From positions 17,465,501 to 17,529,500 of the forward strand of contig NC_091099.1 of assembly GCF_024713975.1 (NCBI RefSeq): a DNA stretch of 64,000 bases. Direction: 5' to 3'. The position numbers and the translations under genes are program-made. Positions 10,001 through 59,560 of the stretch are shown here, piece after piece. The stretch is from Paralichthys olivaceus (Eukaryota > Chordata > Actinopteri > Pleuronectiformes > Paralichthyidae). Under the pieces are notes generated by a model, which worked only from the letters and a program-made list of their open reading frames with translations, made no database searches and was not told the origin of the DNA. Within the stretch, counting starts at the first letter, position 1; every line of letters starts with the position of its first letter.

Positions 10001-13000
10001 AAGGAGGTTGTGTTTTCATCTGCGTCTGTTTGATAGTTAGCAGTATGAAGCGAAAAATAATAAAACGATTTGCGTTAAACTATGTGGAGGGATGACCCGA
10101 GACGCAAACCATTCAATTTTGGAGAGGGTCCAGATTCATGATTTTTTTTATTTACCATGGCGAGAAGAACGTGCTCTCTGAGTGCCCTTTCAGTTGGTTT
10201 GTTTGATGGTTTATCTGTTAGCACGTTCTTTTACTATGTTTTATGACCAACCATAACTTGTAAGCGCAACATAAATTTAGTCCATTCACTGATTTAGTCA
10301 ATTGACAGGAAAATTCTACATTGCTTGACAAATTCAACTGGTTTTTGCTCAAGTTAATTGATTTTGCCAACTGAATAAACTTTTTTAGAATGAAAGACTA
10401 ATGTCTGAAAGATCTGTTATCAAAAGACTCACAAGATCTTTCTCCTTGATCTCCTGCAGAAGCTGAGCGAGTGAGTTTGTATCTTGCGCCTCAGAAGGAA
10501 CCAGCTCAAACACACTGCAGTATAAGCCACCCAGAGAGACTGAAAGACAACAAAAGACCCAACATCATTACTATACATGAATTCAAATCCAATAATTTTA
10601 ATAAACATTCCTTTGAATTGTAAATCTTGGACAATAAAGATATTTTTTTCGGACATCCGGAAAACCCACCTTCACTAGAGAAGCAGGTTTTAAAGGCAGA
10701 TCTTGGCAACAGCTGCATCAGATCAACCATGGAAATGGCTTTCTCAACTTTGACCACTGGAGGCCTTAAACAGAAAAACAAAGACAGAGAGAAAAATACA
10801 AGTCATTTAATTCAAGTCTAAGTTAATAAAGAGAGCAGTATAGATTTACTCTGCACCTTTAACTTACAGTTTTGTAGGAATCAGTGCCCCTTTGGTGGAC
10901 CTCAGCCCAACATCATAGGACCGGGTGCCTATTTGAAGCTGACCCCTCCAGGCCAAGTAATCACAACCTGAAATAAAATCACATACAACAACTATTAAAT
11001 AGCTATATGTTGTACATGTTCATTTCAGTTTATTTTCAATGAATTAAATACACTCATGGGGCACTTATTATGTGAACCTGTGAAATTAAACATGAAGTTG
11101 TGCATGTAAACATGATATAGCTGATTTACTAGACATGCACATTACTGAAAAATAAATGACTGCCATTATCTAAATTAAAAGCTGTAAATTGATTAACATG
11201 AATAATGTATTTCAACACTGGCACATTTGGGCTGTGGCTGAATTGCCAAGTAATAAACCTTATGAAAGTGCTATTGAACTGAATTTGCAAGATTTTCTGG
11301 ATTTTACTTACCCAGTTTTTTCTTCTCACTGAAAAGAGAAATCAGGAAACAAGTTATCAAATATTCTTTACGTGTATTAAGTGGTGTTGATATGCAGAGC
11401 AGAATACGTGGTGCCATCATGTTACAGTACCTTGTCTCTTGTGGTGTTACAAGTATTGCTTTGGTGTCCACATATGAAAATGGTACAATAGCAAAAGGAC
11501 AGGCAGCACTGGGAGATAGAGCTGTTTCACCGCTTCCATCATCCAACAGCTCATATAAGTAAAACTGAAAATACAAAACAAAAGGCATTTGAGCTACTTA
11601 ACGCCCTTTCATTCTTTCTTTCTTCAAATACTGTCAAATATCAAGGTGCTCAACAATACTGTGCTACCAAGGATGCATATAGACGAAGAGATAAAGACAC
11701 TTGAGCTGCTTTCAGACATGCACTGAACTCTGGATAATTTCAGGAGATTGTATGAGGCAAATGTCAGAGTCAGTTGCTTCGGAAACTCTCCAGAGTTTGC
11801 CCGCCCCCTCCTAAAAAGTCCAGATAAAGTCCACCATAATGTCCAATGAGCCAATGTGAGAACACAGATTAGCAGAGAACAGTGGAATCAAATCATCTCC
11901 TGAGTTAAGCACATCCCCAAGTTAAAATATCTGTTCACATTTCAGCACTCAGTTACCTGGGTTCTCCCAAAAGTAAGAAAGGAGCTGGTTTTGGCAGATG
12001 CTGAGGACAACTCTTCTGACTCATGGCAGTCAAACCCCACTGTGGGTGCTGTGAACTTCTGGGTGTAGTTCTCAAGAACCCTCTTAACTCTGCCCTGGTG
12101 AAAACAACAAAGGATTACAAATGATTTAGCTCATAACATATTATGTTCTAATAATAAATACATTTCAAGTTCCCAATTTTTTAGTACCTTTGTTAGCCTG
12201 ATGATGGCGACGTATCCAGATTTTCCATGATACCAGCAATTTAGATCCCAACAGTCAGAGTATCTTGACAAGTAAACACCTGAGTAGATACAGGAAACTT
12301 TCACTTGATGTGTTTTCAGGTAGAAATAAACACAAGGAGGGTTTGAATACATTATAATAAAGTACAATGTAACTACACATTACTCTGCAGTGACTTTCAA
12401 AAACAACTCATGTTTTAACAGCACACACCTTTAAATATGAATGTCTCAACTGTCAAGGACACACCACACGATAAACTGCTATCTGAATTACCTCACCCAC
12501 TGAATGACAGACCATGTACTTGCAACATTATGTTCTCCTCAATCGTTAACAATAAGAAATTTAAAAAGAGAAATTTACATCTATAACCTTAACGAATATT
12601 ATAGATACTTTAAGCTTCACTGTACAAGAATACATATTGCTTCACACTGATCAGGGCCTGCACTTAATTCTTAGTTTCCACAAAGCAACTCAATACACTT
12701 TATTCAGTGCACAACAACTTAAAGATATTGAAACGTAGAGATAATAGGATAATTAAAAAAGCATTGAAATGAGTAGGATGTGTAAAAATACACATTCAGT
12801 TAGATTCTCCCACAAATTAAAAATGGCAAACTTACAAAAGAAGAGGTAGAAGAAACAGCCAATGAATAGTTTGGCGGGTCTTGTATACTCCCTTACCTAA
12901 AGTCTCCTGTCAAATTGCTGTAAGTAACAAATCACAAAAAATACTAATAGATAACCTGTCCAAATGTCTCTGAAAAATCGATAAAGCAAGTTTGTGGTCC

Positions 13001-14900
13001 TAATAACAGAGGAAATCTGTTACATCATGTTTCTGATCTGGACAAAAACTGAAACAGATCAAAACAGAAACGGATGATTGGTAACAGTGCAACACTGCTA
13101 CATTTATTTTAATTGCATGTGACACAGCGGGGCCATGTTTTCACGGTCCACTCCAGTGTAATATTAAACTACTGTTCAATGAAAAACAGAGTCATTAAAA
13201 AGGACTTTGACCAGTGTTTACAATGTCCATACCGCCTGGGGTAGGCTGGGGTCTTCAGAAAATATAAACGTGTAGATATGTAGAGATGCTGGTATACACA
13301 TGTCTGACCAGGTGGGAATATTTGCACAGGTCTAACGCAGCAAAATTTTGACTGGCAACATTTCTAAATGGAAGTTAAGAGGCAAAACTTGATATATTAA
13401 AAAAACATCACAGTTAAAGGTACAGTGTGTAGAATGTATCTAAAATTGCATGTTGCAGCTGAATACCCCTCACATCACCCTCTCCTTCCAAACATGAAAA
13501 AGAACCTGTGGTGGTAAACATGGCGGCCTCCGTGAAGGGCCCCCTTGATGTAAATATAAAGTATTTAAATATAAAAGGTATTTTCTCGGGTAAAGAAAAC
13601 TACAATTCATACAATTTAGATGAAACAAACTAATGAAAACATCATGAGGATTATTCTACATTACATTTCTGTCAATAGATTCCTTTTACCTAAATCTTGG
13701 ACCTTTAGATTAGATTTCTTTTAAATGTTGCAATGGGCAGTGAAACAGGCAACACATACCGTCTCTCCCCCTCCTTCCAACACTCTTCTATACACCAAAT
13801 TAGTTTCTGTTTGACAACATAGTTTCTGTTTCACAGCACAATTTCTTCCACTTTCATTTTTAACATTAATGCAGCTCCTGCGCTTGCTTTCACTTTTAAA
13901 GGCAGAGGACCCCCATTCACTCAGCATGGACCTTATCTGCAAAAGAGACACTCTGAACAGCATAGATGCCTGGATAAAAACCTGGACATGACCATCAAGG
14001 TAATAACTCCATAGCATACTTTAAATCAATGACAAAGATTTAATGTCAAATGTTTTTTTTTGCTTTTGCTCTACCCAAGTTATATGTTCCAGTGATCATT
14101 GTTTACAAATCTTACACCGGTGTTATGCATGGAAACCTGACCTCATGTTCGGTCATGGCTTAGCTATTTCTACAAAACTGTCATGGATAGCTTGAGGAAG
14201 TGAAAGAAATCATAACTTACCCTTAAACGGATCTCCCAGAGTTGTGCATGCACTCTTTCCTGTGAGGACGCCAGTTTCTCCGAGCGCATGAGCCTTTAAG
14301 CAAATACAAATGAGAAAATCAGCGACCTCTGGAACGTGTGCTGTCTCACGTTAGTCGTCGTAGCAAGTCTGTACCTGGTTGATGTCATCAAACAGCAAAA
14401 ACCCAAAGGTTTCCTTCAATTCCTCTTCTGAATATCCTGCTTGTCTTCTCTTTGCTCGGAAGGCATTATACTGAAGTGAAAGATATAAAAAAAAAACACA
14501 GAATGGAAAATGAAATTTCCATTTCCTCAAGATCTCCTGTTTAACGGATTGATGTTTTTGAATCTGTTTTTGAATACAAAGCAAAGTAAGAGTGGTGTTT
14601 TGCTGCACTGCACATTTTAAACAATGTTGCCTTAACTTTTTAGTATGAGAACTCAAATAACACAGGATGCGATGACCTAAATAACACACTTTTTATATAG
14701 TTGCTGCAATGTGAATGCCATTGGACTGGTGGGATCAGGTCTGGACTAACCTTCTTCTCCAGCTGCTCATTCTTGATCAACACTGCGGACTTATACCTGA
14801 AAGACTGCTTGGACTCCTCAAACAAGTACGCACTTTGAAGTGGAGCCAAAATCGTGCTTTGAAAGACGTCAGAAGCGTCTGACACGGGCACTAAAACACC
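1042..14900 (-). CDS. tasor2: TASOR2 (FAM208B), HUSH-subunit TASOR paralogue, 3' end outside window
   Basis: Exons in gene order: 14900-14751, 14470-14375, 14293-14221, 12279-12188, 12094-11957, 11564-11431, 11328-11312, 10967-10868, 10764-10670, 10539-10433, 9947-9875, 9773-9702, 9543-7453, 7147-6409, 6291-5820, 4621-1178 and 1067-1042. All junctions are GT/AG and phases agree, giving about 2,640 codons. The first six exons or so match the TASOR-family DUF3715 (pseudo-PARP) region, with blocks such as LAPLQSAYLFEESKQSF, YSEEELKETFGFLLF, DLNCWYHGKSGY and ACPFAIVPFSY. Two giant exons (2,091 and 3,444 bp) encode a low-complexity acidic/Ser-rich middle. Conserved blocks return near the end (FLEQVSRRCLQDDPTQ, YRFYILATSDDSIFEETK). 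TASOR itself supports H3K9me3 silencing; the role of TASOR2 is less clear. The first exon has no in-frame ATG and an in-frame stop at 14901-14903, so the start lies in an unidentified upstream exon. The 17-bp and 26-bp exons are the least certain. Confidence 0.9.
9991..10165 (+). repeat. Dispersed fish repeat (family A), in a tasor2 intron
   Basis: It starts with a CTCTGCCAAGGAGGTT-like motif, followed by a TTTGTTAGCAG-like segment and a remnant reading GGTCCAGATTCATGATTTTTTT. Related segments occur near 22330, 55855 and, inverted, 63390. I recognise this as a common, strongly decayed teleost interspersed repeat but cannot assign a named family. Confidence 0.6.
13414..13709 (+). mobile_element. 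Non-autonomous inverted-repeat element (MITE-like), family B copy 1
   Basis: The left end reads TTAAAGGTACAGTGTGTAGA and the right end is its diverged inverse, CTTGGACCTTTAGA. The body shares long blocks with the copy at 51716-52082, for example TGCATGTTGCAGCTGAA, AAGTATTTAAATATAAA and ATTCATACAAT. There is no coding capacity. It lies in the intron between tasor2 exons 14293-14221 and 12279-12188. Confidence 0.7.
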
Positions 14901-15302
14901 TTAAAGTGGACACAAACAACAACAGCGTGACACAGAGTAAACTACAAGCCACCGAGCGAAGTTACAGCAAGTTGCGTTTTCGCTTTCCCAGCTTGGGGAA
15001 AAAACTTCCACCAGACTGGGACTATTTGTCCTGAGAGACACGACACACACTCCGTGTCCTTTTCTCGTCGACTCAAACGACATTAATAGTATATCTCATA
15101 ATAAACATACAAATATATATGTATATGTAATAATATAGGTCAGGTATAGTGGAGGTGTACACGCTCAAGTCACATTAATAGTCAAAGTTTCACGAGGAGA
15201 AAGTGTTTCGTCACCTTTACGCGCAGCAGCGATAAGTCCACTTTCCATCGCTGGACTTTTTAGGAAATCTGTCTTTCTCCCTTTGCCCTTCGTTGAAAAC
15301 TC

Positions 15303-15995
15303 TTGTCTCTGCTTTTACACATCACCACGGAAATGTTAGACGGTCCCAAGTGTGCTGATGCGTCAACTAAACCTCTCGCAGTCACTCGAGCTTTCGTCGC
15401 AGCTTCGACAGACATTAATGCGAAAAAACCAGGAAGTTGCAGAATAGAGCACAGTCAAACCACGCAGGAGCGAATAGATCTGCTTAGGTTATTGTTCCAT
15501 ATCGTTTCCCAGGTAAGAAATACGGTTAATGGTGGAATCTCCTCGGCTTCCTACGTGTATCGTAGTCCAGTCGGTGGATGCTGTTAAAGTCGCTCTTGAA
15601 AAAGAAACAGAAACCTACGGAGGGGAGAACCTCCATTTTGAAAGTCTACGCGGAGCTGCGGCGGTGGTGAGGCTGGTGTGGCTCTGCTGTTCCCTTTCCC
15701 CTGTCTGCTCCCCTCATCGAGGACTGATCATCACACACGAGCTTATCAGACATATGTTCTTACACTGACGACTCAACGCGTGCCACGATTTGGACGATTA
15801 AACACGAGATTCTGCCATGAAGAGAAAGTTGAGTTGATATCAACAGTGGCAGAAGCAACACGGGGTCTATTTATTCCTGTTAGTCTGGTTCTGTGACAGG
15901 ATATTAATTACTGCCAATGCTGCCACTGTCATTATTCTTTACTGTCATTTTTTGTATTTTTCACTGACCTGATCAGAGGTTATTGACAAAATAAA
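15303..15995 (+). other. Possible small divergent transcription unit upstream of tasor2
   Basis: A 60-70 codon open frame starts within 15303-15336 (internal ATG at 15333). It reaches a strong donor (CAG|GTAAGAA) at 15512/15513. A second, out-of-frame open stretch of about 79 codons covers 15529-15768 (for example LHFESLRGAAAVVRLVW). A canonical AATAAA at 15990-15995 is followed by a T/G-rich stretch. The pattern looks like a short gene or bidirectional-promoter transcript opposite tasor2. I do not recognise the protein, cannot place the downstream acceptor, and it may be noncoding. Confidence 0.35.
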
Positions 15996-15999
15996 GCTC

Positions 16000-17400
16000 C
16001 ATCAAGTATTTACCTTTTGTTGAGTCCATGGTGACAAAGTGGCAACAAATCCCCAACTATCCAAATCAAGTCAACGTCAAGTTGCTTTCGTGATCCTACA
16101 CAGTAGCCCAATATATACACTTGTTATAAGAATCAGATAAGACCTAGCTGGGTTCCATCATTAACCCATCTAGGCCAATTCCCCCAGGCCCCAAATGGGA
16201 GAAACCAGGGTTACCCACGTGGGCCCCTTTATAATGAACACATCTGGGCTGAAGCTTATGGGGCCACCATGGAAACTGGGGACAAAATAGACTGTGCCCC
16301 AGTTGGGTAGCTCAAAAGGGCTTCATATATCAGCCTAGATCCACAACATTTGGGCCTCATCTGTGGGTGGATGCTTGCATAATTGAGACTCTGGGCTCTC
16401 ACCACCAAAGTATGCAATCCATTGCTGTACCCAAAATCTCTTCCCTGTTCACTCATTTACTACTCCCTGGAAAATAGAGCACAGGAGAGATCGCTTTTTG
16501 AGCACAGTTGTATAATCTTAGTCAAATGTTTACTTCAACAGTGACAACACACCCGTAACCTACCCAGGCATTTTCACCCAAACCACAACATTTTTAAAAA
16601 GTTCATCAAAAAGTTCTGAAATCTTTTGTGGTGTAGAGCAATTTTTAATATGGGATATAATTGTGGAAAACCATCTACAGCAATAATATTGTTCAGGCCT
16701 TACACATGAAAATGGGATTGTGTCTGTTTCTGAATTGTCCATCAGCAGCAATCGCACATTACACCAAAAACAAGGAGACTTGGGCAAGAGTAAGATAATG
16801 CAAAGTCAGTCTATTTATTGTGAGCCTTGGCTAACTTCCCGAAGCAAAATCTAATACTAGCTTACTCCTCACCGTGAAGTCAAATGTTGCTGCTAGAACA
16901 CAAACTGCAGACAGTCACAATCATTGGTGAAGGAACTTTATGATATATAATAAATGAATCATAAAGAATAAATAAACAGCTCCCTTCATGCAGTCCTGGT
17001 CACAACATATGATGGCATAGTAAGCGTCACACTAGCATGCTAGCTTAGCCATGTAAGCTTTAAAAATGCAAAACCTTTTTACTTGTTAACACATTTAGGA
17101 GGTCGATGCATTTTAAAATATAATTTAAAACACTGCATTGTATACGTTGTTTCTTTTATGAGCTTTATTGTTACAGGTTAACAAGCAAGTACGACTATAA
17201 TATAATTTATGTTAGCATGAACAAGCTGGATTCAGAAACAGTCAATAAATAATCAAATTATAAAGTTAATTTATAATTAGGTCGATTTAATTTTTATTTG
17301 TGACTGGGAGGTATTTCGTTGTGTTTTATTTTCTTTAAATCAATTATTTAACTTGACTGTAGGACACTTCCTGCTTGTCAGTCGCCTACATTACCCAGAG
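16000..17400. other. Spacer between tasor2 and asb13
   Basis: No exon is recognised. The part at about 16150-16460 has repeated GGGCCCC and TACCCACGTGGGCCCC-like motifs. It resembles a decayed dispersed repeat of fish genomes, with no coding sequence. The remainder is AT-rich and unremarkable up to the GC-richer asb13 promoter at about 17360-17560. Confidence 0.45.
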
Positions 17401-17567
17401 TTCCACAGCACTGTTTGTCTCTTTCAGGACTACACCTCAGCCCCCCTTCAGCCCCGCGTGCTGCTGCAGCGATGATGTTGTCTCTGTCATTATTGATCTG
17501 CTCAGACATGACTTTCACGTTTGGCGGAATCTACGCGCTTCGCGGAGGAGAGGAGCAGTAACATGAA

Positions 17568-20500
17568 ATGGAGGCCACCCGGGCCAGACCGTCCTTGTAC
17601 GGAGAAATCGGTAAGTAGCTTACAGCTGGTGACCAACACTAGCCCGGGACAACCGTGTTGGCTAACAGTTGGTAGCTGGGATATCACACATGGACGAGAG
17701 CGGGTTCACGCAGCTTTCATTCCATGTTAGCAGCTGCGAGTCTCGGTCACATATCGAGCTCAACGTAGGAAGACAAGCGTTGGTAAATAAATGGAGAGCA
17801 TGGCACGAAGCTGGAAGCTCGTGAGGGAAGCCAGTGGGCTCTGAAGTACCTGTCACACAATGTTACACAGAGTTTCTAGTTTTAACAGCAGAGGCGACAT
17901 ATCTCATTTATCCAGAGATTGACATCACAGGTTAATGAACCCAATGACGTGAAATACAACCCAATAACAGACGATCCTCATAGTACAACCCATTAACAGA
18001 CGACCCTTATAGTACAACACAATAACAGATGATCCTTATATTATAATACAACACAATAACCAAAGATCCTAATATTATAATACAACACAATAATAGACTA
18101 TCCTTATAATACAACACAATAACCAATGATCCTTATAATACATCGCAATAAAAAACAATCCTTACAAAGTAAGACAACCCAATAACATACTCCTTACTAT
18201 GTAATACAATTCAATATCATACTTCTTACCATGTAATACAATAACATATTTCATACAATGTAATACAATACAATAACATACTTCATACAATGTAATAAAT
18301 GCAAGTACTAATAAATTCAACAGCAGTACAACAGGATCAAGACCTATCCAAGTGATTTTTGTCTCTTGTTTTATAAAGAATTGGTTGAAAAACTTCTTGG
18401 GCTCTCATTTCTCACTTTGTGTTTGGGCCCAAATGAACAACAAACTAATTATTCAACAATGTTTTTTTAAAGAGAAGTGACTAAATAAACATTGACTTGG
18501 GGAGAAGATTAGTTAAGAAAAGAAAAGTTATTTAACATAAGTAGACGGGGTCAGTTTTGTCTGGTGTTGCATGTTTGCAGCTCATGGTCTTGGATTCTGG
18601 ACGGACCGGTCTGCTGTGCATGAGGCCGCTGCGCAGGGCAGGGTGCTGCAGCTGCAGCAGCTGATCGAGGGCGGTGCAGCAGTTAACATCGTGGCTGTGG
18701 ACTCTATCACGCCGCTGCATGAGGCGTGCATACAGGGCCAGACCCAATGTGTCCGACTGCTGCTGGGCGCTGGTGCACAGGTGAACAGATCCACCAGAAT
18801 TGAGTCAAGTTAATGTCTTAGCTCATCAGTGCACGATAGACTGATTGTATGTGTGACGTTGTTGTGCCTCTGTGTCCGACAGGTGGATGCCCGCAACATC
18901 GATGGTAGCACTCCACTGTGTGATGCCTGTGCAGCTGGAAGCCTTGCATGTGTCAAGCTGTTGTTGGAGTATGGAGCCACAGTTAACCCTCCGCTGTTTA
19001 CCTTCTCACCTCTTCACGAGGCGTGCATGGGAGGTGCGTCATGTTTTGTACAACATCAGACAGGAATGTACTTTGAAGCACGAATCTGTGCATATATTTC
19101 ACCAAAATCTATTCAAGCCAAACAACAGCTCCTCTGCTCTTTGAAGGACAAAACATTTCCTCCTTTCAAGCCCACAGGAAATAAGTATCTCCTGACCTTT
19201 CTGTGCTCAGAGAGTCGTTTCATTTTGTTCTAAATAAAATACATTTTGCCTTTTTCTCTCGAAAGGTAATTCAGATTGTGTTCAGCTCATGATTGATCGA
19301 GGAGCTTTCATGGAGGCTCACGACTGCCACTACGGGACACCGCTTCATGTAGCCTGTGCCAGGCAACACTACAACTGCGCCAAAGTTCTCCTCAGTGCAG
19401 GTAACATGTGAAATGACAACATCATGATATTACAGTATTCAGATAATTACTACAACAAAATCAACTGTCTTGTCTCCATGGGACAGAAAAATGTCACATC
19501 AGTTCATTTCCCAGCTTTTCATCAAGCCCTGAAAATACATTTGACTAATTGTATTTTTTCAGTCGATCATTCTGCCTGTTATTTGTCACAGTTTTACTCA
19601 GCTTGTTAACATGGCTCACAATGTCGATATTCCATATGAGGGAGATTTAATTTGCCTATTCAAAGTAACAGCAGGTTTGTTTTCATATGTACCATAAATG
19701 ATATCAAGTTATTATGACATTTATAATGTACTCACTCACTCAAGCCATTTGTGTTTTTTCTTTCCTTTAGGGGCAAATGTTAATGCTGCCAAGCTACATG
19801 AGACTGCCCTTCATCATGCAGCCAAAACAAAGAACGTTGACTTAGTTGAGCTACTTGTGGAATTTGGGGGCAACGTGTATGCCAGGGATAACCTGAACAA
19901 AAAACCCATCCACTACACCAGTCTGGGATCTCCCTGTTACCTCTGCCTTGAGTTCTATGAGAGTAAGTTTGCTTACACACATATCTTATTGTTTCTATGT
20001 ACGGTATCCTGAGTGGCCCTGTTCAGACCTGGTACTAACATCCGTCTAACATCTGGTACTAACATCTGGCATTCCAATAGTCTCCACATGTGACTTCAGA
20101 TACCACATGTGATCAGATCTCACCTCCCTGCTTCTATATACAAATACACATGTACTATACTTCTGTTTACAAAGAGCATTGATGTTGTTTTTCGCCAGTT
20201 GGACTGTACAAATGGCTCCGTCAGTGTGTCTGTGAGTTAATGTGTGTCAGTGTGAAAGCTGAAAGTGTCTGCTGAGGAGTTGCTTCAATAGGTTTCTGTT
20301 ATGTAGCCCATGTACTCAACAAAATGCCAGGATGTTCAGGTATGAAGCTGTTCTGGTCTTACAATAACAATAAATACCTTGTTAAAACAAATGAATGGAT
20401 TCAGTTAGAAAAATAGGCCAGACTCCAACTCTCTATAAGAGCAGCGCTGCTCACATGCCTGGGACACACCTTAGACAAGTGGCTCATACAGACAGTATTG

Positions 20501-25605: not shown

Positions 25606-28600
25606 CTACACCTCAGTTTCCTTCCTCTTCACTGAGCCTTGTAACTTCTTGTCCAGTCTGGTTTTTGAGAGCTTCTGAGGCCTGAGTTTTGGGCCAGAGA
25701 CGGGTGGACAGTTCTCGTCCGTCTCTTCGTCACAGATGGTGGCCGAGAGGGTGGAAGAGCGGCGTTTGGCTCTGATGGCTTCACCCTCCTGAACCCGAGG
25801 TGCAGCCTCCTGCGGCTGCTGAGCCATCGCGGTGCGCAGACAGTTGAGCCACTGCTGTTTGTGGTAGACGTCATTGACATGCAGGGTGTGGGACTGGCCA
25901 TGGGAAGGATCCAGAGAGCTCACACGGAAAATGTTCTTCACTGGAGAGACACAGTGAGCAAAGAAACAGTGACAAATGATCTCTAGGCTGTGAGAGACAA
26001 TAAAATCCATGAATTTCGTCCATTATCTTCAACACTTATCCTTTAAATGCACAATATGTACCTTTGGCCACGAGGGGTCTCTCAATCAAATCAATAACAA
26101 AAGATGTGTTATCGTTTGTGATTGTTTGGTGACGTTAAGCAACGTGGGATCACGGAAGCTGTCTTCACCATAATTGCAAATGAAAATGCAGATAAAAATC
26201 TACCTGAAGTGACTCGATATTGATGCAAAAATGTTCATGGAGGGAGTAATAAATCAAAGTCTTATTCACGTTATGCACAAACAGTGGAAGGAAAAAAACC
26301 TTATTATAGGGTGATCAAAACAAACCTTACACAACCTGTCATAAGTGGCTCATCTCACCCAGGTCACCACCTTTTCACATTGCCACTCTGGAAGGTCCTT
26401 AAAAACTCTCACTTCCAGACTCTTAACAAGCCTTTATCCAAGTGATGTTAGAGAACTTGACCAAGTGCAATAAAATCCAACTTTGCTATATTATCATTAT
26501 CATTATGTGCAATGTAACGATGTACTCCCTGTTTTTAATGCCCAACATTTTAAAATGACTCACCTAGCAGGTATGTGTACACTAAGTTGTATTCCAGAGA
26601 GTACAAATATACTAAACCTCTACTTAGCTGCTGCAGTATGGTATGGTAAACATGTAAATTATCACTAAAGTCTGTGGTTACATTGGCTCAGGCTTGTTTG
26701 TGCAACAGCAAATTGGGCATTATAGCAAAGAGAAGATTCAAGTTAAGCTCTGCTGAAGACTGAAGCCGCAACTCCTCCCTTAGAGATCAGAACATGTTCA
26801 CTGTGTAACAAGGTAATCGGCACGATTTAAACAAGCTTGTAAAAACACCAGACTGGGTGAGACCATATGGCAATGAGCGCCTGCTTCTACATGAGGGCTA
26901 CCATTAATGAGCATTTATCTATTAATTATTTTCCTCTTATTCATTTAGAGTCACAACAGAGAAAAATGCAAGAGCACAAATTTGTCTTCAAATGATTTTT
27001 CGGTCAAAAACTGAAAAGGTAAAAAATTTACAACAATACAAAGAAAAGAACGGGAGCAAGTTTACCAAATAATTAGTGAAACCATCAAAATTTCAAAATG
27101 GCAACACAACACTAACTCAACGCAAGTTTGGAGTGTAACACAAACTCAACCTACCTTTCTCTGTGTTGGTGAAAGCCCCTCTGAACGACCCCCCCATGCG
27201 GATTTCTCCGTCTTGCACGTCCTCCAGAGCCAAGTCCCTCACTGGGATTGGCTGTCGATACACCTGGAAGCAGCTCCTCTCATTACGTGTCACCGGCCGC
27301 GTCAAAACCAGCAGCTCGGAGAAGAGAAACACATGCAGCCGCTGTGGAGAGAGACGTTGACAGAGAGTGAAATTTACTTTGATGGACACATACATGTTGA
27401 CAGTACTTTTAAAGCATGTGGGTGAAATTATGATAAGAGATTAATCCTGATTCTCACCGAGCCACTCTTGTTCCGCAGCTCACCATGACACAGCAGTGTC
27501 TTGCAGTTGTCTATGAGAGGGTCTCGCTGCTTCTCATCCAGATACTCCAGTTTGTCTATATAATACTGACACTCAGACTCCCCCTTCCTCAAATTGATGT
27601 CGGACAGAATCTCCTGGATTATAGAAATCTGGATAATCAAAGAAAGATTTATCAGAAAACACACAGTAACCAGAAAAATAAATATCAACACTCTTATATC
27701 TGTGAAAGTAGAGATGTGTATGAGGCAGATATATATCGTACAGCTCTCTCCAGACTGATGACGTCTGGGTGATCAGGAGGAGTGTGTCTGAGGATCTCTC
27801 GCAGCAGCAGCGGGTATTTCACCAGGCGTGAACGTGGGATGTCCAGGAAGCTCCACAGGTCAAGTTTTCTGCTGAAGGGCGACTCGAGACAGCGCTGCAA
27901 GAAGTCCTGCACCCGCCTGTCCTGCTTCTTCTGGTCGAGCAGCGCTTTGGCCGCGAGCTGGTTGCTGCAGTAGTTTTTGTAAGCGTTCAGACCAGGCAGC
28001 TGCGAAGATAAGATAATCTGTTTCAAACGGTTTGAAACTAGGTGAAATGAATACCTTATTGGTTTCTTGTCATAAAGGAGGATCAAAGTTCCTTGAAATT
28101 TCTCAAAATCTCTTTAAACATACATAAACATTACTTCCAGATAAGAACCACACAATGTAAATGATTAACTACTCACATACAATGTTTTATTCATGTACCT
28201 TACACATAAGATTTGAAAATGTCAATTGTAACCTTACATCAACTAAAATATTTATCTATTTCATGGATTACTAAAATTAATCATGAGCTCACGAATTTAT
28301 AAATCAGTGACACTGTTAACACACTGGAACTTGATAAATCCAGATTATTGAAAGCATTTAAAGATTATATATCACTCTGGAAAGTCTTAAAATAAATTAA
28401 ATAATCTTTACTTCAGTTTCCTCCAAAAAGCCTTAAATTTAACTTACTAAATAGTTCATCTTGCTTTTAATAAAGAATTTTAATAAAACGCTAATGCAGA
28501 CTGTCAGGAGATAGAATATATTTTAATTAATTATACCCCAAACTAAAAAGTGTGGATGAAGCTGCAGCAGGCTGATCTATCCTGTAGCAGAGTTTCAGTC

Positions 28601-46019: not shown

Positions 46020-49000
46020 TTAACCTCCAGTGCTCAACTTATTCTGTAGATGGAAAGAAAACAAGTTATAACCAATCATGAAGAGAAATAATAAAAAGTC
46101 AAATGTGACAGTAGATGCAGAGTCATACTTTCTTGGCGTTGTCCACACACTGCATGTAGGCTGAGGCTATGCTCGAGCAAGACAGAGTTTTTCCTGTGTT
46201 GTCCTTGTAGCATTTTAGAATCTGACTTTGCAGGTCTCCACACACCGGCTGCACGTCGAAGCGCCTGAGAGGGCAGAGGCACAGAAGTGCAAATGTCAAA
46301 CATCACGCTGGTTCTGTGGTTAATGTCACCTAGCAGACAAACTACACTATTGTCACATGTGTAATGTTTAACTTTTTGCATAGGTCACTGCACTCTGTAA
46401 GCTCACCAAGCACAACAGTCATCCCAAAATAAATTTGTAGAAACAGTATTAACATAAATGACTCACGCAAAACGCTGGTGTGTCTCCTCTTTGCCCTTCT
46501 GGAAGCTCTCTGCTGTCACTTTATAAAACTCAGTGCACTGTCACAGACGTAAACACAACACACATCACCATCCAGATCAAATACCAATCAAAAAATCTGA
46601 AAAGAAACTCATATAATTCTTCTATTTCCTATTCTTATCATTATTTTTTCAAACCTTGTATAAGCAATTGCATAGGTGAGGAGGTAAAATGTAAAAACTG
46701 CTCTTTCATTCTTTCTTTTGTTAGAAAAATAAATCATTGAATAAGGTCAAATCTGTCAAGGCAACGCAGAGTTGTCTTTGCTGTGTCACAACTAGAGGCA
46801 AATTAATCACAGAGAGTTCGAACTAAAATACACAAAGAGAGAAAGTAAGAAACAACATGCACATTTTGAAGTCAATCACAGCTGTGTAATATTTTCATTT
46901 GTTTAAAACATTAACATGAGTCACATATACAGCAATTTCCAGTTTATATTGCTTTGTTAAACAGTTTAATAATCTAGGTGTAGTTTAACATTAATCTGGG
47001 TCATAGCACCACATAGTGGTAAAAACTGATCCATGCAGCTTAAAATAAATGAAAAGTATCCAAAAAGTTCATTTACCTTGGTTTCAAGTTTTGCGATGTG
47101 TTCCTTGTAGAGAGTGTCTCGTTTCTTCAACTGTTTCTCCTTCTCCTCCAGCTGATGAGCCTGAGTCCATAAACAATTTTATCACATGAAGAAAACTTCT
47201 AAAACAAAAATATATGCTCAAACTCTACATTTCACCGTTTTCTTATTAGAATAGTTTAGAGAGGGAAATTAAAATGAAGACCTGGGTGTCCCTGTGCTCA
47301 ACATATTGCAAACGTGATGGTAAATCTTTCTGGACATGAAAACTACTACTACCAAAATAATGAATTTTTACTTGGTGCTGCTGGGTTTGCTGTTGCTCAG
47401 CAAAGTTACATAGCGTTGCTTAAATACCAACAACTGTTTTGTGTATCTTCTGTCCTTCATGCTTAATGTTGTATTGTCTCTTCTGACACCGTGGACAAGT
47501 CTCGGGCTGTTAACCTCAATGGGGTTTAGTTAGAGAAGAATGAAAGTGAAAGATTAAAACATGCATTCTCTCCCATCTTACCTTCAGCTCCATCCTCTGA
47601 AACAAGACAATAGGGCAAGAAAGAGAAAAAGTAAGAGGAGTCGTATTTACAAGAGATCCTCATACTCACAGTACTGTGCACAAGGTTTAGGACCTTTAGA
47701 TATTAACCAGATACTGAAACAGACTTAAGCCAGAAGAGATCAAGTTCTCTAAAGTGATTTGAAAAACCTACTGTATCTGCCATGTATCCTGGAGACCCGG
47801 AGCTGCTTTAACCCAGTTTTGTTTGCTGCAGTTTCATGAGGTTGATCGATAAATAAAACACTTTGATTTGAATGCATTCCAACATTACTTTTATGGACTA
47901 AACCTTTTGCACAGTACTGCACATAAATGACATGCATGTGTTTTTTTTCTGCTCACATAAAGCTGCACCATGAGCCTCTCGTCCGCTGTCCTCATTCGCT
48001 CCTTCATGATGGCGTCCGTCAGCTTCTCCATGTGCGCCGACTTCTCCGCCTCCAGTGTCTTCTTCACCTGCTCCTCCACCTGAGCCTGAGCTGAAGCCGT
48101 GGCCTCGACCTGAGCCTGAGCCCTCATCTCCTCCAGTCTGCATATGTACGCACACATCACATGTCAGAACAGTTTCTATTGTGACCCCATGACCTCTTTC
48201 ATACAGTTCATATATGATGAGCTGAAGCTGATGAGTTAGTAGACTAAAAATTCATAATTCAGCAGTAATTTTGACAGTTGATTAAATGTTTTATATATAT
48301 TTTAACTAGAAAGTGAAGATTTTCTGTGATATTTATTTTGTCTTGTGAAATGAAAATATATGGGATTCCGAATGTTTGTTGGACAAAATGTGAAGACGTC
48401 TCACTGGGCTCAGGGAAATTAACATTTTTACTCTTTTCTTACGATTTGATTACATTTAATAATTAAGAAAATTATTCAAGGATTAATTGTTAGTAACAAG
48501 TTTGACACTTAATGAATAAATGTTAATTCATTTGCTGCTTCCAATGTCAAGAATTAAGTTTTAAGAGAATACTGACGGGAAGTACCTGATCTGATCTGAT
48601 GAACATCATGTGATATTATGATCAAAAGCTACTCGGTGGATCTTATGATTGTTTTTCAAACAGTTTCTGCTTCTTTGACTGTATTTATTTTACCATGTTT
48701 ACAGAGGAGTTTGGTCACAAAAGATTGTGTTGAGCTTGAATTAAGTTCTACTTTATGTCACCTTGTCAGACACACAATAGACCACCCCTTCTTACTGTAG
48801 CAGCAGCTCCTGTCTCTTCTGGTTGATCTCGTCCTCCAGACTTCTCTGCATCTCCTCTCTGATCTTCTGCCTCAGTTCTCCCTCCACCACTTCAGGAGAA
48901 ACAGGCAACGCTGTTTGTCAGACGAAGAAAAAGAAGAAAATCAGGAATTTAGTTTTGAATTTCTATTCATCAGGAATATAATTAATATTACAAAGTTCTG

Positions 49001-52000
49001 GCGGATCCTCCATAGTTTGCATAAATTAATATTAAATACATTTGTTTCTCCAATGAGACTGTAAAGGAAAACAGCACTTATCTAGCACTGTCAGAATAAA
49101 TGTCTATTAATTATATTAATAATTTTGAAGGAATGCGTGTGAATGTGTTTTTTAGATATTTATAGCCATTTTGTCTTAATTGACTAGACAGTTAGAGTGA
49201 AAGGTGGAGACAGAACAGGGGAAAACACACAGCAAAGGGCTGGGTCATAAATGAACCCGTGGCTGCTTGATATGTGGTACCCGAGCTACCAGGTGATGCT
49301 GTTCCAACAAGTCAAACCTGTGTCCCTGAGCTCTGATAAACCTCTACAGGCACATGAATACGTCACAACAGTAGATATCAACGTACCTTTGGCCGGTGGA
49401 GGCACTGAGGTCACTTCATCCTCAACAACAGGGGGCAGAGACAGGATGGGGATGGACTCTTCAGGAGCTGTTTCACATGGAGGTGGCTCAGACAGAGGTG
49501 GCATTACAGGCTCTACGAGGGGTTCACTGACCACAGGGGCATCAGTGGGTATGACGGCCAGCTCCACACAGTGACAAGGCGGGCAGGGCTCTTCAAAGGT
49601 GAGCTCTGGAACAGGAGGGGGGGCTGCTACTGGCTCAGGAGGAGGTGGAACCAGTGCACATGGAGGTGGAGAATCAGCAACTGGAGCCACAGCTGGAGGA
49701 GAGGGAGGTGGTAAATCAACAGCTGGAGCCACAACTGGAGTCACTTCCACAGCTGGAGGAGAGGAAGGTGGTAAATCAACAGCTGGAGCCACAACTGGAG
49801 TCACTTCAACAACTGGAGGAGGCATATCAACAGCTGGAGCCACAACTGGAGTCACTTCAACAACTGGAGGAGGCATATCAACAGCTGGAGCCACAACTGG
49901 AGTCACTTCAACAACTGGAGGAGGCATATCAACAGCTGGAGCCACAACTGGAGTCACTTCTACAACTGGAGGAGGCATATCAACAGCTGGAGCCACAACT
50001 GGAGTCACTTCTACAACTGGAGGAGGCAAATCGACAGCTGGAGCTACAACTGGAGTCACTTCAACAACTGGAGGAGGCATATCAACAGCTGGAGCCACAA
50101 CTGGAGTCACTTCTACAACTGGAGGAGGCAAATCGACAGCTGGAGCTACAACTGGAGTCACTTCAACAACTGGAGGAGGCATATCAACAGCTGGAGCCAC
50201 AACTGGAGTTAATACTTCAGCTGGAGGAGAGGGTGGTGGTAAATCAACAACTGGAGACACAACTGGAGTCACAACTTCAACTAGAGGAGGCAAATCAACA
50301 GCTGGAGCCACAACTGGAGTCACAACCTCAGCTGGAAGAGGCAAATCAACAGCTGGAGCCACAACTGGAGTCACTTCTACAACTGGAGGAGGCAAATCAA
50401 CAGCTGGAGCAACAACTGGAGTCACTACTTCAGGTGGAGGAGGCATATCAACAGCTGGTGACACAGCTGGAGTCACTTCTACAGCTGGAGGAGATGAAAC
50501 CAGTTCACATGGAGGTGGAGCATCAACCACAGCTGGAGTCAGTTCTTCAGCTGGAGGAGGCAGGACTACAGGCTTCACCTGAAGATGTAAAATCAAGCCT
50601 TCAGCTGGAGCTGGATCAACAGGACAGGATGGGATTGTTGGTTCTGGTGCAAGTTCAACAGTGGGTGGAGGTTTAACTGCTTCAACAGGTGGGGTTGAAG
50701 AGACAACAGTTTCAAGAGGTTTGACAGCAGGAGCAGCAGGAGCAGCAGGAGCAGCAGGTTCAGCAGGTGGATAAGCTAGTTTCACAGTTTCAGAGAGAAG
50801 AGATGGAGCTGAAGGTTCAGGTGGAGCTGCAGCTGATGGGGGTGACTCCACAGGTGGAGGAAGGACAAAAGGTTTGACGACTTGTTCTGCAATAGGTGGT
50901 CTAGAAGTGGGACTTTCTGGTGCTATGACGAGGGGTTCAGGAGGAGGTAGATCGACTGGCCCTGCTGCAGGAGGAGGTGCAGGCTCCAGATTTGCTGCGA
51001 CTTGTGGAGAAAGTGAGGATAGAGGGGGAGGTGGGGCTGAGACAACAAGGTCAGGTAGAGGTGAAGTTTTTGTCTCTGCAGGTGAAGGAGGAGCAGGAGC
51101 TGTTGCTTCAGATTCCAGAGAAGTTGTAGGAAGGGAGTGAAACTTTACAGGAGGAGGAGGCACTAGTTTTACAGGCGGAGGAGGAGAAGCAGGTTCCATT
51201 GATGGAGGCGTGGATGGTGGTGGAGGTGAGATGAATGTAGCAGGAGGAGGTGTCAGGAGAGGCAGCATGTCATCAACAGAGGGGGCGGAGGGTGGAGTTG
51301 GCGCTGGAGATTCAGGTGAGTGTGGAGGAGGAACTCCATTCTGTGGGAGCTGAGGGCTGACCACTGAAGGCTGTTTCATCCGGTTGATGACTCGGTCTGA
51401 CAGCTGGAGAGAGAAACACACATATTTATTGTGGTGAGCGCCACCTGCTGGGCTCATCAGGTGTATTTTCAAAATAGATGCCAATTAACCTTTTGTCCAT
51501 CAACTAATTAATCGAGTAATTGTTGCACCTACAAAATGTGTATTGATTCATCAGTATTAACAATCTATGACAACATCACCTCTCCCCAAAAAGTGAAGCC
51601 AAAGTGTTTAAATCACCCGCTTGTGGCTGGTTGTAGTATATAAATCAAATACATTCATCTGAAAGTTTTTTTTTTTTTATCACTTTAAGTAGTTGTTATG
51701 ATACTGATGTTTATTCAAGTGTGGAGAATTTAGTGACATCTGGTGGTGAAGTTGCATGTTGCAGCTGAACACCCCTCACCTCCCCCTCCACTTCCAAACA
51801 TGAAAGAGAACCTGTGGTAGTCTTATGTTGACATAAAAACTCAAAAGGTGTTTAGTTTGTCCAGTTTGTTCTACTGTAAAAAACATGGCAGCCTCTGCAG
51901 AGAGGACCCGCTCCTAGTGTTAATGTAAAGTATTTAAATATAAAGGGCCCATTGTCGGGTAAAGAAAACAATAATTCATACAATAGAAGAAACACACTAG

Positions 52001-52935
52001 TGAAAACATCCCTAGGAATAATTTTTATTCAATTTCTGCCAAACATCCCTTTTACCTAAATCTTACACACTGGACCTTTAAATGCATGAGTTTGACATGT
52101 AATATAGTAAATAGATATATGGTATATTTACATGAGTATGAGATCTTGTTAATTGCTACACAATTAGAAAACTTAATGAGAAAAGCACAACCTCATATTT
52201 TCTCTAGTTAAAAGTTGACACAGCACAATGTCCCTGACAGAGGTCAATATAAGTCACAGATTGATCTTTGCCTATAATTACTTTAGGATTACTGACAATT
52301 TTAAAGCACATCTGAAGCACAACTATTTTTTTAAATAATAATTTAGGAAAACTAAACTGCAGCATGCATGAAATAATATATTTTAATGTTGTCTAAAGCA
52401 AAATGGTTTATTTTCTGTCAGAGGCCTTTTTGTTTTTTATAGTGGCTATAGTGACTATTTAAAAAACGATTCAGGTAAAGATGTTTAAATTCAAACCTAG
52501 AGAGGATGTAGAAAGAATACACAAGATCCAGCGGGCAAGTGTACACAATTATTTACCAGCTATTATCATCATCATCATTATTATTATTATTACTAATAAA
52601 AAGCTGTTAGTTTAGAAAATGTTGCCTCATCCATGAAGATTACTGTTGGAAATATAAAAATGAAGCAGAATGTTTCATTGTTTGATTTAGAAATTAGAAA
52701 TTAATAAAAAAAAATCATCTTTTGATCCTGATTAGAAACTACTGAAACTGATCACAGGTCAGTGTTGATGCAGAAGTGGATGAAGTGTGTGCTTGACCCT
52801 TTAGTTTAAAGTCTCAGTTTCAATCCCATGCCAAGTTTTCCCGGAGCTTTCACTCACCCGGATGCCCTTCACAAAAGCTACTCCGCCTGCCTCACCCTCT
52901 TCTCGGGAGAGGTGACTCGGACTGTTCCCCCCCAT
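46020..52935 (-). CDS. chchd3: MIC19/CHCHD3-type MICOS subunit with a giant Pro-rich insert
   Basis: Nine exons: 52935-52858, 51403-49387, 48910-48796, 48137-47957, 47596-47582 (15-bp microexon), 47160-47077, 46537-46467, 46264-46129 and 46043-46020. Phases agree, giving 906 residues; family members are about 230. Residues 1-26 start MGG (possible N-myristoylation) and run into VKGIR, joined to LSDRVINRMKQPS, the MIC19/25 N-terminal signature. Residues about 40-695 are the Pro/Val/Ala-rich insert. Residues 700-850 form an Ala/Gln/Glu-rich coiled coil. The CHCH domain has twin CX9C motifs (Cys 862/872 and 883/893), and the tail is KLSTGG. MIC19 sits on the intermembrane-space side of the inner membrane, binding MIC60 and bridging to SAM50. 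The CHCH and tail resemble CHCHD3 more than CHCHD6, but the paralogue call is not certain. Confidence 0.88.
49677..50500 (-). repeat. chchd3: 51-bp coding minisatellite inside chchd3 exon 2
   Basis: About 15 units of 51 bp (17 codons) encode PPPVVEVTPVVAPAVDM or the variant ending VDL. The central eight or so units, from about 49815, are nearly identical. Within them a 102-bp dimer (L unit plus M unit) is repeated, with starts at 50027 and 50129. Outer units are more diverged and carry longer links such as PPSSPPA. The unit length is a multiple of three, so copy-number change keeps the frame. Confidence 0.95.
51716..52082 (+). mobile_element. Non-autonomous inverted-repeat element, family B copy 2
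   Basis: The right end is TCTTACACACTGGACCTTTA. The left end (AAGTGTGGAGAATTTAGTGA) is a diverged inverse of it. The body matches 13414-13709 in several blocks. It sits in chchd3 intron 1, just upstream of the expanded exon. Confidence 0.75.
52083..52857. other. chchd3: Remainder of chchd3 intron 1
   Basis: AT-rich intronic DNA with a short ATC/ATT trinucleotide run near 52565-52600. No other feature is seen. Confidence 0.6.
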
Positions 52936-55303: not shown

Positions 55304-58300
55304 TCACTCCGCCTTCTTCTCCTTGGCGCTTGGTCCGCGCAGAGCCGTCCGCACACTGCTCCACACCTCCGTGTACAGCAGAGTGCCCAGGAAGACCACG
55401 GCGGTGCCCACCCAGTGCCAGGTGGTGAAGGGGTTTTGGAAGTACATGATGGAGAAGATGAGGCTGAGAAACTTCCTCAGTGTCACCACCAGAGTGACGG
55501 TCAGTGAGGCACACTCGGTGGTCAGGATGAAAACGCCACGGATGCACACGTACCTGAAGACGCTGGTTAAGGTCTGCAACAAGAGTGTCATCATTATTTT
55601 TGTGTTGGTGTCACATTTACATGATGTTTTGTGTGTTTCGAGTGTATGGCCACATCTATGAGGAGAAAATCTAAATCTAAAATCTTTAACCCTAAATAAT
55701 GTAATAAATTGTGATTTTATCCTCCAGAGCAGTGATTCTTGAGCTTGTGACACGGTATCATGGGAGATAGTGGAGTTTCAGAGGTGAAAACCAGATTATC
55801 TGCTTAATGATTTACCAAAGCAAATTATAGTATTTCTCTACTCTTGAGGAGGTTTTTTCTTCATTTACACAGTATATTTAATGTTCTCACCCCGTCAGTT
55901 TGTTCGTTGATTTGTTTATTTGTTTGTCAGCAGGATAACTCTGACAAACAGATTTTCATAAAACTTGATGGAGGGATGGAACATGAGTCAAGAAAAGAAC
56001 CCTTTAAATTTTGGCACAGATCCAAATAAGGAGGAAGATCCAGAATTTTTTTAATCTTTCACATTAATTGGCCCTAACACTCAGCTGTACTTAATGACGG
56101 ACATGTCGACAATTAACAATGAGCTTTTGTTTTGGCAGGATACTGTGTGATGACGTTGATCAGCAGATAGAGCCACATTATTGGCACAGACACTCCAACC
56201 ACAGGAACCACCGCAGGAGCTGCAGAGAGGAGATGCTTATTTACATCAGTGTGAAAAGTGAAAAAGTCACAAACATTAACGTTTCACCCCCGACTCACCG
56301 CTCTGACTGAAGAGGACGCAGTGGTGGTAGATGTCTGTGGAGAGGAGGAGGAAGCCCGGCAGAGGGAGGAAGTGCTGAGAGAGAAAAGAAAAAGAGACAT
56401 TTACACAGCGAGAGACAGAGGCTTAGAGGAAGCTTGAAGTTTCCCTGCAGGCATTTGAATGTGTTGTGCACGTCCTGCGTGTCCGAGCAAGAACAACACT
56501 CACATTATAGAAGAGAGCCTCTTTGGAATGTTTCCCATACTGCTTGTACAGCGTCTCCTGGAAAATACCCATCCTCGCAGACATCAGGAGAGCAAAGGTC
56601 AACATGCCGATACCTACGAGAACAGAAATCCTTCCATTAGCAACACTGCTTATTCTTTGAGGGTCCTGGGAGAGAGAAGCCAGACACAACATACAGGAAT
56701 AGAGTCGCTAATCAGTCCAACATGCTTGTGATTGGACCGAGAGGAAGCTGGAGTACACACAGGAAATCCAGGTATGTGGAGAAAATACTAACTCATAAAG
56801 AAAGGCCTTGACTAAAACAGGGACTCAGACCCTACTAGTTGTGAGGTGAGAGCTCCAACCGCTGAACCACCATGCCGCCGAAGAGCAGAAATGAAAAAGA
56901 AAAACTTTGGTTTTACCACTTGGGAAATTGTTTCACTTGTGTATGTGTGTGTGGTCTGAGTAGTCCTCATGTTGTGGGGACCTAAATCTCATTACACAGT
57001 CACATTATGGAGACTTGTCCTCCTTGTGGGGACACGAATTAAGTCCCCTTATTGTCAATCACAAGTCTCGAGGAAATCAATGTAAGTCAGTGTAATGTCC
57101 TCTGCTGCCATGGAGACACGACTGTGTGTAGTGTAGTTGAGATCAAAATGAGAGCTGAGTTGTAAGATGGGTTGTGGAGTGAACCATTCATACTAATGAA
57201 ATAATAATAACCACCATGGAATGATGTTGTAATATCTACTGAAAACTCATCATGCTGATGGGCCTCATTTTTAACTGTCCCTCAGGCCACTTGTTAACTT
57301 AGACATTAAAACAGCTAACAGCAGCTGAGAGCTGAAAACAAATGGTTGGAAGAGTCCGTCAACAATCAATAATAATTAGCAATAATTCTGATTTATCATT
57401 AATCAATTACCAAAGTTTCATGAGTTCCAGCTTCCTTGTCGTGCAGATGTGTTGATTTTTTTCTCTCTTGTATGACATTGTAAATAAAACATCTCAACTA
57501 TTCTCTGGCAATTTATTGACTGAACAATTAGCTGATGAATAAAGACAAAAGCTCATACCTCAGTAGATGGTGAAAATCATCATCATAACCCCCGACCCAA
57601 ATAAAATGTAATTTTGTGAGTCAGAACTGACCTATGAGCCAGCGCACGAAGGTGTAAAATCCCTGCTCTCCTGATCCCTCAGAGGCCACATTCTGCAGGA
57701 AGAAAAACAAGAGGTCACAAAAAGTATTAGCAGTTGTAAAAATTGCGTATATTGAGTATATTCAGACAGAAAACTGTGCATTGTGTAAAAGCATGTATTG
57801 CATGAGAACCAGGGACTGTTGTGCAGAGGACTCACCACTTGTTTGGCAGACATGATGGTGCAGATGAATATTCCAGCTGAAACTAAAACTATAGACAGAT
57901 ATTTACTGGCTGAGTACCTGCAGAGAGACAAGGTGGGACACAAATAACTACAACACTTCTACACGTGGGTGCACAGTGATGGTGCAGACGAGTGTCAGAG
58001 GACACATTGGTACCTTTTCTTCAGGATGATAATCCCCAGGATCATGTTGGCGATGAGGGATCCCTGCGGAGAAACAAGCAGCGGGTCAGACTGAGGTGGA
58101 GGTGATGGGTGGGGTTTGTGTGACAGGTGAAGCTCGTACTGATCTGAAGATCATGTGCAGCGGCATGGCGATGTTAAAGTTGAGAGCGTAGTTGTTGATC
58201 ACGCTGACGGTGAAGAACATTGTCACCATGATCACATAGTTCCTGCAAAAAAACAGGCATAAGAGGTTTGTTTTAAGTGTCTGTTTATCTTTTCTACAGC

Positions 58301-59560
58301 GGTATATTCTTTTCAGTTTATCCTGTTCCTCTAGTTTGTTTTGGGTTATTATTTGTGTAAGTTAATTTTCTGCAAAGTTAAAAGCCCCACAGTCCACATT
58401 AAAGGGAGCTCCTCTCTCCCACAGAAAACTCCTGAAATCAGAAGCAGTCATCAGTAGTCAGGCTTAAAACGTCACAATATCACAATACTGTGATTGGGCC
58501 TCTGACCTCTGACCCCTCTGGGAGAGGTTGACATTCACCTGATGGGGATTGTGGGTTTCTTCCTCCCGAAGTTGGTTTGGAAGATGAAGCCTTCCAACGC
58601 GATGAATAGAAACTGAGCGAAGGTGACGATGTTGCCGCATCCTGGAAACTGTCTAAAGAAAGAGAAGAAAACAACAACACTTGACTACTTATAATATGTT
58701 GTTTATTTACTGTCTGGTTTCCTGTGGAAATAAGATGACAGGTATTTTACAGTCATGTCAATCACTACACTCACTGTTGAGCAATAACTGTAATGAATGA
58801 AAATACAACTTTCTGCTGCTCCCAAACAAACTCTGAACCACAGTGAGATTTGAAACAAAGACTGAAATCTAGGTTTTTAATGTTGATTGATTGATTTTTA
58901 ATCTATGTGGAAATATACACATTTCAAGAACGAGATGTGGTTGAGTTGCTAAATGGAATTATTCACACACTTCCCTCAATCTACAGGCTTGTGTTCCCCT
59001 TAGAGATTTTAAACCTTTACCATGTTTTTAATAAATCTTCTTCTGACTGTTTTTATTCATTTATTTGTATTGTGTTGTTTTGTTGTTGCTGGTGATTAAT
59101 TGTTTGTTGCTGTAGTGAATGTTTCTTGAAGTCCTCAGGCTTCTCTTGGAAAAGAGATCTTGATCTCAATGTGACTGCCTGATTAAATACAGATTGAATA
59201 AAAAATGATTCTGACCTATTTAAAGTCATCAGGGAAACTTTCTCACACAAATAACTTGCAGGAAATAGACGGTTTGTGCAACCAGGAATGATTCATTCTC
59301 TCGTTTGACTGGAAACATTAAAACCAATTATACAACCTGAGAAGCATGACGACACTACTCTGCGCCTCGTGCACAAGTTCATTCCCAGTATCCACAGCGG
59401 GGCGGATGCTGCAGGTTGAGGGCAGACAGACGCAGGTGACAACAACATGACGCCGGTGAAGTGATCAGAAGTTTGCCACTGACCTGACGAGCAGCTCCAG
59501 AGACACCACGTTGCTGCAGCACCCGACAAACACCAGGGCGATGGCGAACACTGTCGCCAT
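55304..59560 (-). CDS. slc35b4: SLC35B4, UDP-sugar transporter of ER/Golgi
   Basis: Ten exons: 59560-59484, 58652-58539, 58242-58140, 58063-58014, 57917-57836, 57692-57632, 56613-56504, 56374-56299, 56219-56144 and 55553-55304. Phases agree; 332 residues, human 331. The family carries UDP-xylose and UDP-N-acetylglucosamine across ER/Golgi membranes. Conserved blocks include ALVFVGCCSNVVSLELL, PGCGNIVTFAQFLFIA, FTVSVINNYALNFNIAMPLH, SLIANMILGIIILKKR, LLMSARMGIFQETLYKQYGK and RGVFILTTECASLTVTLVVT. The hydrophobic pattern fits about ten membrane helices. The chosen ATG has a perfect GCCACCATGG context. An in-frame ATG 36 codons upstream is probably not used. The tail KKAE is a KKXX-type ER-retrieval signal. 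Confidence 0.97.
55855..56085 (+). repeat. Dispersed fish repeat, family A copy, in slc35b4 intron 9
   Basis: TTTGTTTGTCAGCAGGATAA, then AACTTGATGGAGGGATGG and GGCACAGATCCAAATAAGGA, with a GATCCAGAATTTTTTT end. This is the best-preserved of the four copies seen. Confidence 0.65.
56815..56880 (-). repeat. Fragment of an abundant fish repeat in slc35b4 intron 6
   Basis: GTGAGGTGAGAGCTCCAACC followed by GAACCACCATGCCGCC is the inverse of the start of a repeat class found in most teleosts. It belongs to the class represented at 37975. Confidence 0.5.

Follow-up and report, generated by a model that had tools for sequence, protein, structure and literature searches.

A chchd3-like MIC19 gene of Paralichthys olivaceus with a very probably coding, proline-rich second exon of 672 codons

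The window, the whole stretch of 64,000 nucleotides that was analyzed (bases 17,465,501-17,529,500 of contig C7), carries on its minus strand a gene of nine exons, which were joined into a stop-free frame of 2,721 bases, resulting in a predicted 906-residue protein of the MIC19/MIC25 family. We read this gene as a chchd3-like MIC19 copy in which exon 2 has grown into a long, proline-rich, translated and tether-like segment, and assign to this reading a probability of roughly 0.6. The gene name MIC19 is right, and exon 2 is very probably coding. A preliminary description had reported a 672-codon exon rich in Pro and Val within a MIC19 gene, free of stops, with proper splice sites and the right phase on both sides, and a protein of about four times the family length. 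These points were borne out by the results given below, human MIC19 being about 227 residues long.

Gene model and family assignment

The coordinates of the exons and of the parts of exon 2 are collected in Table 1. All eight introns of the gene model are of the GT-AG type and all exons join in phase. Splice sites were scored using hand-entered acceptor and donor weight matrices. The acceptor of exon 2 scored 10.8 bits, the best in the gene, and its donor 9.1 bits, the third of eight. Using the same matrix, the acceptors of exons 3, 4, 6, and 7 were weak (0.2 to 3.8), which counts against the reading given above.

Table 1. Features of the chchd3-like gene in the window (positions are those of the window).
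Feature	Position	Strand	Remarks
Coding exon 1	52858..52935	-	MGGNSPSHLSREEGEAGGVAFVKGIR; ends in phase 0
Coding exon 2	49387..51403	-	2,017 bp = 672 codons + 1 base; rich in Pro, Val, and Ala
Exon 2, pre-array part (codons 1-315)	50459..51403	-	starts LSDRVINRMKQP; Markov openness test
Exon 2, tandem array	49664..50458	-	unit type PAVDMPPPVVEVTPVVA; no selection signal
Exon 2, post-array part (codons 581-672)	49388..49663	-	acidic; cysteine cluster PCPPCHC
Coding exon 3	48796..48910	-	conserved coiled-coil part begins here
Coding exon 4	47957..48137	-	coiled coil
Exon 5	47582..47596	-	15 bases, RMELK
TGCATG, possible Rbfox site	47560..47565	-	bases 17-22 of the intron 3' of exon 5
Coding exon 6	47077..47160	-	coiled coil
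Coding exon 7	46467..46537	-	joined gene model
Coding exon 8	46129..46264	-	twin CX9C (CHCH)
Coding exon 9, including stop	46020..46043	-	joined gene model

The joined protein matched the MIC19_MIC25 model PF05300 with 105.5 bits against a curated cut-off of 33 (E 5e-30). Both CX9C motifs are kept at the C terminus (CGDLQSQILKC and CSSIASAYMQC); the CHCH model PF06747 gave 20.5 bits with the whole protein and 23.7 bits with the C-terminal part, both below its cut-off of 27.2. Exon 2 itself opens with the family segment LSxxVxxRM, here LSDRVINRM. Together with the coiled coil, these features make up the likeness to vertebrate MIC19 (CHCHD3), and the C-terminal GG is also as in human MIC19. The window copy differs from vertebrate MIC19 in the length of the protein and of exon 2 and in exon 1, which is treated below.

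Openness and splicing of exon 2

No stop is present in the frame of exon 2, as opposed to 40 and 51 stops in the other two sense frames. In first-order Markov simulations of the same make-up, the pre-array part was open in none of 2,000 runs; the corresponding simulations gave 58 open runs of 2,000 for the 92 post-array codons and none of 2,000 for exon 2 as a whole. Proline codons outside the array are varied (CCT 68, CCA 40, CCC 13, CCG 3), which counts for the reading given above.

The length of exon 2 equals 1 modulo 3. Skipping of exon 2 breaks the frame, since the end of exon 1 is in phase 0 and exon 3 relies on one base supplied by exon 2. The best in-phase (phase-1) donor inside exon 2 scored 3.9 as against 9.1 at the true end; the highest score of all inner donors, 7.5, belongs to a site in the wrong phase. 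Because skipping breaks the frame and a good in-phase inner donor is lacking, exon 2 is most likely constitutive, and the MIC19 product, if the gene makes one, is most likely long, as far as splice signals and phase can tell.

Tandem array

A tandem array takes up about 40% of exon 2; 12 of its units have 17 residues (51 bp) and two have 20 residues, and they are followed by one last partial unit, the end of which was set by hand. The units are near-identical, with 88% matches over 13.9 copies in TRF and three consecutive identical copies. Two long open frames, of 335 and 357 codons, were observed on the antisense strand at 49575-50676; they are a trap for gene finders. A separate or antisense gene at exon 2 was considered and rejected, these frames being a product of the 51-bp period. 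As this period holds several frames open, the array adds little evidence for coding. Comparison of 66 pairs among 12 units yielded a pN/pS of 0.75 in the coding frame, as against 0.67 to 0.78 in four other frames, one antisense frame yielding no ratio; no selection was detected in the array, and the comparison is uninformative on this point. The near-identity of the units suggests that array length may differ between individuals.

Other MIC19/MIC25 copies in the genome

A family search of the whole genome (588 Mb, 25 contigs) yielded 11 matches, a count that is a lower bound, and 10 of these fall in four loci on contigs C7 (the window copy), C23, C6, and C2, giving at least four MIC19/MIC25 loci. 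The eleventh is a stray match on C6 with an E-value of 0.69. Exon 2 measures 2017 bp in C7, 862 bp in C23, 94 bp in C6, and 97 bp in C2, each length being 1 modulo 3. In all four copies, GIR or GVK precedes the phase-0 end of exon 1, and exon 2 starts with LS and ends in phase 1; the join between exons 2 and 3 was checked in the window copy and in the C23 copy.

The C23 exon 2 (C23:6879883-6880744) comprises 287 codons with 36% proline and starts LSENVLNRMREPAAPP. Its acceptor scored 8.6 and its donor 10.3, it ends in phase 1 and joins exon 3 in frame, and its position and phase are those of the window exon. Both copies share the proline-rich nature and the place of exon 2 and, further downstream, a 15-base exon 5, which in C23 is a candidate exon. 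They differ in that the 17-residue array is missing from the C23 exon, where only short repeats (periods of 3, 12, and 27) occur, and in that the C23 copy has kept the RRVSF motif and the myristoylation consensus, both lacking in the window copy. The C23 gene also extends over about 58 kb (exon 1 at 6878383, CHCH exon at 6936589), compared to 7 kb for the window gene. In the C6 and C2 copies, exon 2 has the same position and phase with only 31 and 32 codons, respectively, the open frames ending by 49 and 60 codons.

Identity of the CHCH exon to that of the window copy is 28/45 for C23, 24/43 for C6, and 21/42 for C2; C6 shares 22/42 with C2, slightly less than with the window copy. The likeness of exon 1 to a human MIC25 peptide is 65% and 50% for C6 and C2 and 48% for C23. 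Judged by this exon 1 likeness, the C6 and C2 copies look MIC25 (CHCHD6)-like.

A UAA-family sugar transporter lies just upstream of the window gene on the same strand (55304-58500; 8e-101 using exons joined by hand). We take it to be slc35b4 (SLC35B4); in human, SLC35B4 shares a chromosome arm with CHCHD3. Because its CHCH exon is nearest to that of C23 and because of this SLC35B4-like neighbor, the window gene most likely belongs to a pair of chchd3 copies from the fish duplication. Zebrafish mic19a and mic19b, named in PMC9534849, are a parallel pair.

Elsewhere in the window, a RhoGEF domain exon (27697-28110) and ankyrin-like and long frames (1,100-20,000) were observed. This group resembles NET1-ASB13-TASOR2 of human 10p15, and a gene-order break may separate it from the chchd3-slc35b4 pair.

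Origin of the long exon

A whole-genome search with exon 2 returned only exon 2 itself, and a 40-base tag from it occurred once in the genome search. The C23 exon, missed in the former search, was found by tblastn on selected stretches with the low-complexity filter and composition correction switched off (E 8e-33); the earlier miss is therefore no evidence of uniqueness. With a 287-codon exon of the same kind in the C23 copy, the long exon is not unique to the window gene. Moreover, since the four copies share the place and phase of exon 2, the long exon is the family's own exon 2 grown long and no foreign insertion. The preliminary description had seen an exon interrupting the MIC19 frame, which these results replace by an ordinary family exon of unusual length. 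The alternative that the exon belongs to a different gene was also looked for, and the same layout in C23, the in-phase joins and the LSxxVxxRM start all speak against it.

Homology of the two long inserts beyond composition was considered and found weak. Following removal of the first 14 residues, 57 of 500 full and 55 of 500 local shuffles reached the score of the C7-C23 comparison; with the first residues included, 6 full and 2 local shuffles of 500 did so. With the array removed, the counts were 28/500 (full) and 52/500 (local). The pre-array part of C7 compared to the C23 exon gave 17/500 and 61/500, and the post-array part 151/500 and 89/500, respectively. The common six-mers LPPLVE and PLVEPV are insufficient evidence. 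As the inserts are hardly more alike than shuffles, their common origin rests on place, phase, and composition. One inherited long exon followed by fast drift is possible, as is parallel growth in both copies.

N terminus

Exon 1 of the window copy is divergent, its stretch from MGG to VKGIR being unlike the family motif of the other three copies. The PROSITE pattern for N-myristoylation at Gly-2 fits three of the four copies; the exception is the window copy, which has Pro as residue 6. Likewise, the R(R/K)V(S/T)F motif (PKA site region) is lacking in the window copy and present in the other three, and an RRVSF-type motif was not found further upstream on the same strand within the window. 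The conserved MIC19 frame noted in the preliminary description was upheld for LSDRVINRM, the coiled coil, and both CX9C motifs, but not for exon 1.

A seven-G run is located in and after the start codon of exon 1 (52858-52935). A frameshift in exon 1 was considered and rejected: the +1 frame reads VRVTSPEK, reminiscent of RVTFE, but 351 of 2,000 shuffles reach its score. For frame 0, 215 of 2,000 shuffles do so, and the other frames are no better than shuffles. An assembly slip or a compensated frameshift at the seven-G run is conceivable, although unsupported by this shuffle test.

According to PMC6235283, vertebrates conserve the N-myristoylation motif. With both the N-terminal lipid-anchor consensus and RRVSF missing, contact of the window copy with the outer membrane is doubtful, and whether this copy would bridge the inner and outer membranes is uncertain.

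Exon 5

The matching interval of the C23 copy contains 26 short candidates, of which a 15-base one (EIGLK) was chosen by eye as the candidate exon. TGCATG, the Rbfox site, occurs five times in the 6,916-base span of the window gene, and none was found within 500 bases 3' of the C23 candidate exon. In zebrafish hearts without Rbfox, exon 5 of both mic19a and mic19b is included less often (PMC9534849). Given the occurrences in the gene span and their absence near the C23 candidate, the Rbfox link is a hint only. By analogy, the exon 5/Rbfox parallel hints that the gene may be live and spliced in heart.

Outside comparisons

Five matches to solved structures were obtained with the protein (E 0.22 to 0.68) and taken as chance, as was a single 14-residue match among viral contigs. 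In prokaryote genome contigs, 42 pattern matches yielded no relatives. In titles and abstract openings of a literature that mostly excluded subscription papers, no description of a long proline-rich MIC19 was found. Among the heart proteins of a crucian carp proteome is a Mic19-like isoform X1 (CHCHD3A; PMC10007964). Predicted long Mic19 proteins may well be present already in public annotation.

A similar case is skNAC, a variant of alpha-NAC that carries a proline-rich exon of great length. Inclusion of this exon is reportedly specific to muscle (Yotov and St-Arnaud 1996, as cited in PMC10340688). In both cases a conserved protein is altered by one in-frame proline-rich exon; they differ in that the skNAC exon is optional and muscle-only, whereas exon 2 of the window copy, being 1 modulo 3, cannot be skipped in frame.

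Properties of the insert and proposed role

Proline makes up 30% of exon 2, and only four Phe and one Tyr are present in its 672 residues. The net charge is -31 outside the array and -30 inside. A cysteine cluster, EEPCPPCHCVEL, was observed in the post-array part (49388-49663); exon 2 encodes seven cysteines, unusual for a chain in the oxidizing intermembrane space.

By calculation, 640 residues would form a polyproline-II rod of about 198 nm, as against a span of about 25 nm for a disordered chain. At a rod length of about 200 nm, the rigid spacer of the preliminary description is unlikely; the insert is better accounted for by a loose tether or a crowding chain. The overall interpretation in that description was partly upheld: it was kept as regards a gene of the MIC19 family whose exon is in frame and most likely constitutive, and given up as regards rigidity. 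Judged by composition and charge, a flexible, acidic, disordered tether is the form that fits the insert better, and it is probably a flexible spacer enlarged by repeat expansion.

In PMC13293838, MIC19 is described as connecting the SAM complex of the outer membrane with the MICOS complex of the inner membrane. In the proposed mechanism, the insert, disordered and acidic, would form a flexible tether in the intermembrane space, with a mean span of about 25 nm, and would keep the N-terminal segment away from the coiled-coil region and the CHCH domain; docking of these two on MIC60 would be preserved. The tether would then loosen the coupling of the two membranes instead of holding them at a fixed distance; alternatively, it may fill space near crista junctions or present Pro-rich binding sites.

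Discussion

Neutral growth is a serious rival to this reading, and one that we consider possible, if rather unlikely. Here, exon 2 would be translated while its length reflects drift through slippage and unequal crossing-over among codon repeats rich in proline, in a length-tolerant linker and without new function. Near-identical array units free of coding constraint, the little sequence common to the two long exons, and the other two copies, which manage with 31 and 32 codons, are all in line with such growth. The open codons outside the array are less easily accounted for, as they run into the hundreds in both copies (407 in C7, 287 in C23) with similar composition and net negative charge.

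Following duplication of chchd3 in fish, the window copy may also have become a new MICOS-linked protein, in which the CHCH end that docks on MIC60 is kept, the outer-membrane lipid anchor and PKA motif are lost, and a very long, repeat-variable, acidic, Pro-rich chain would crowd or regulate crista junctions without bridging the two membranes. This suggestion is put forward as an unlikely one.

A short working protein, formed by partial splicing out of exon 2 or by cutting of the chain after import, is more improbable still. Acceptor-like sites within exon 2 are strong (up to 11.4), and the best internal intron that keeps the frame, which would remove codons 298 to 550, has a summed score of 15.3 bits; its donor, however, scores only 3.9, and 420 codons would remain. 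Alternative in-frame acceptors scoring above 5 lie at codons 21 (7.3) and 275 (9.8), but use of either drops the conserved LSDRVINRM, and skipping of the whole exon breaks the frame. Cleavage of MIC19 by OMA1 near the N terminus under stress, reported in PMC13293838, counts for a shortened product.

That exon 2 stems from another gene through assembly or annotation error, or that its array length is an artefact, is scarcely credible: repeat counts are open to misassembly and the seven-G run is present, but exon 2 begins with the family LSxxVxxRM and is in phase with both of its neighbors, exons 1 and 3. The C23 copy is organized in the same way, and the 40-base tag was found once in the genome search.

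With a MIC19 copy carrying a grown, translated exon 2 as the preferred reading, exon 2 linkers of 672, 287, 32, and 31 codons in one genome form a natural length series. Such a series could show either that linker length sets crista-junction geometry or that MICOS tolerates any linker. If array length varies between individuals, the question of linker length could be asked within one species.
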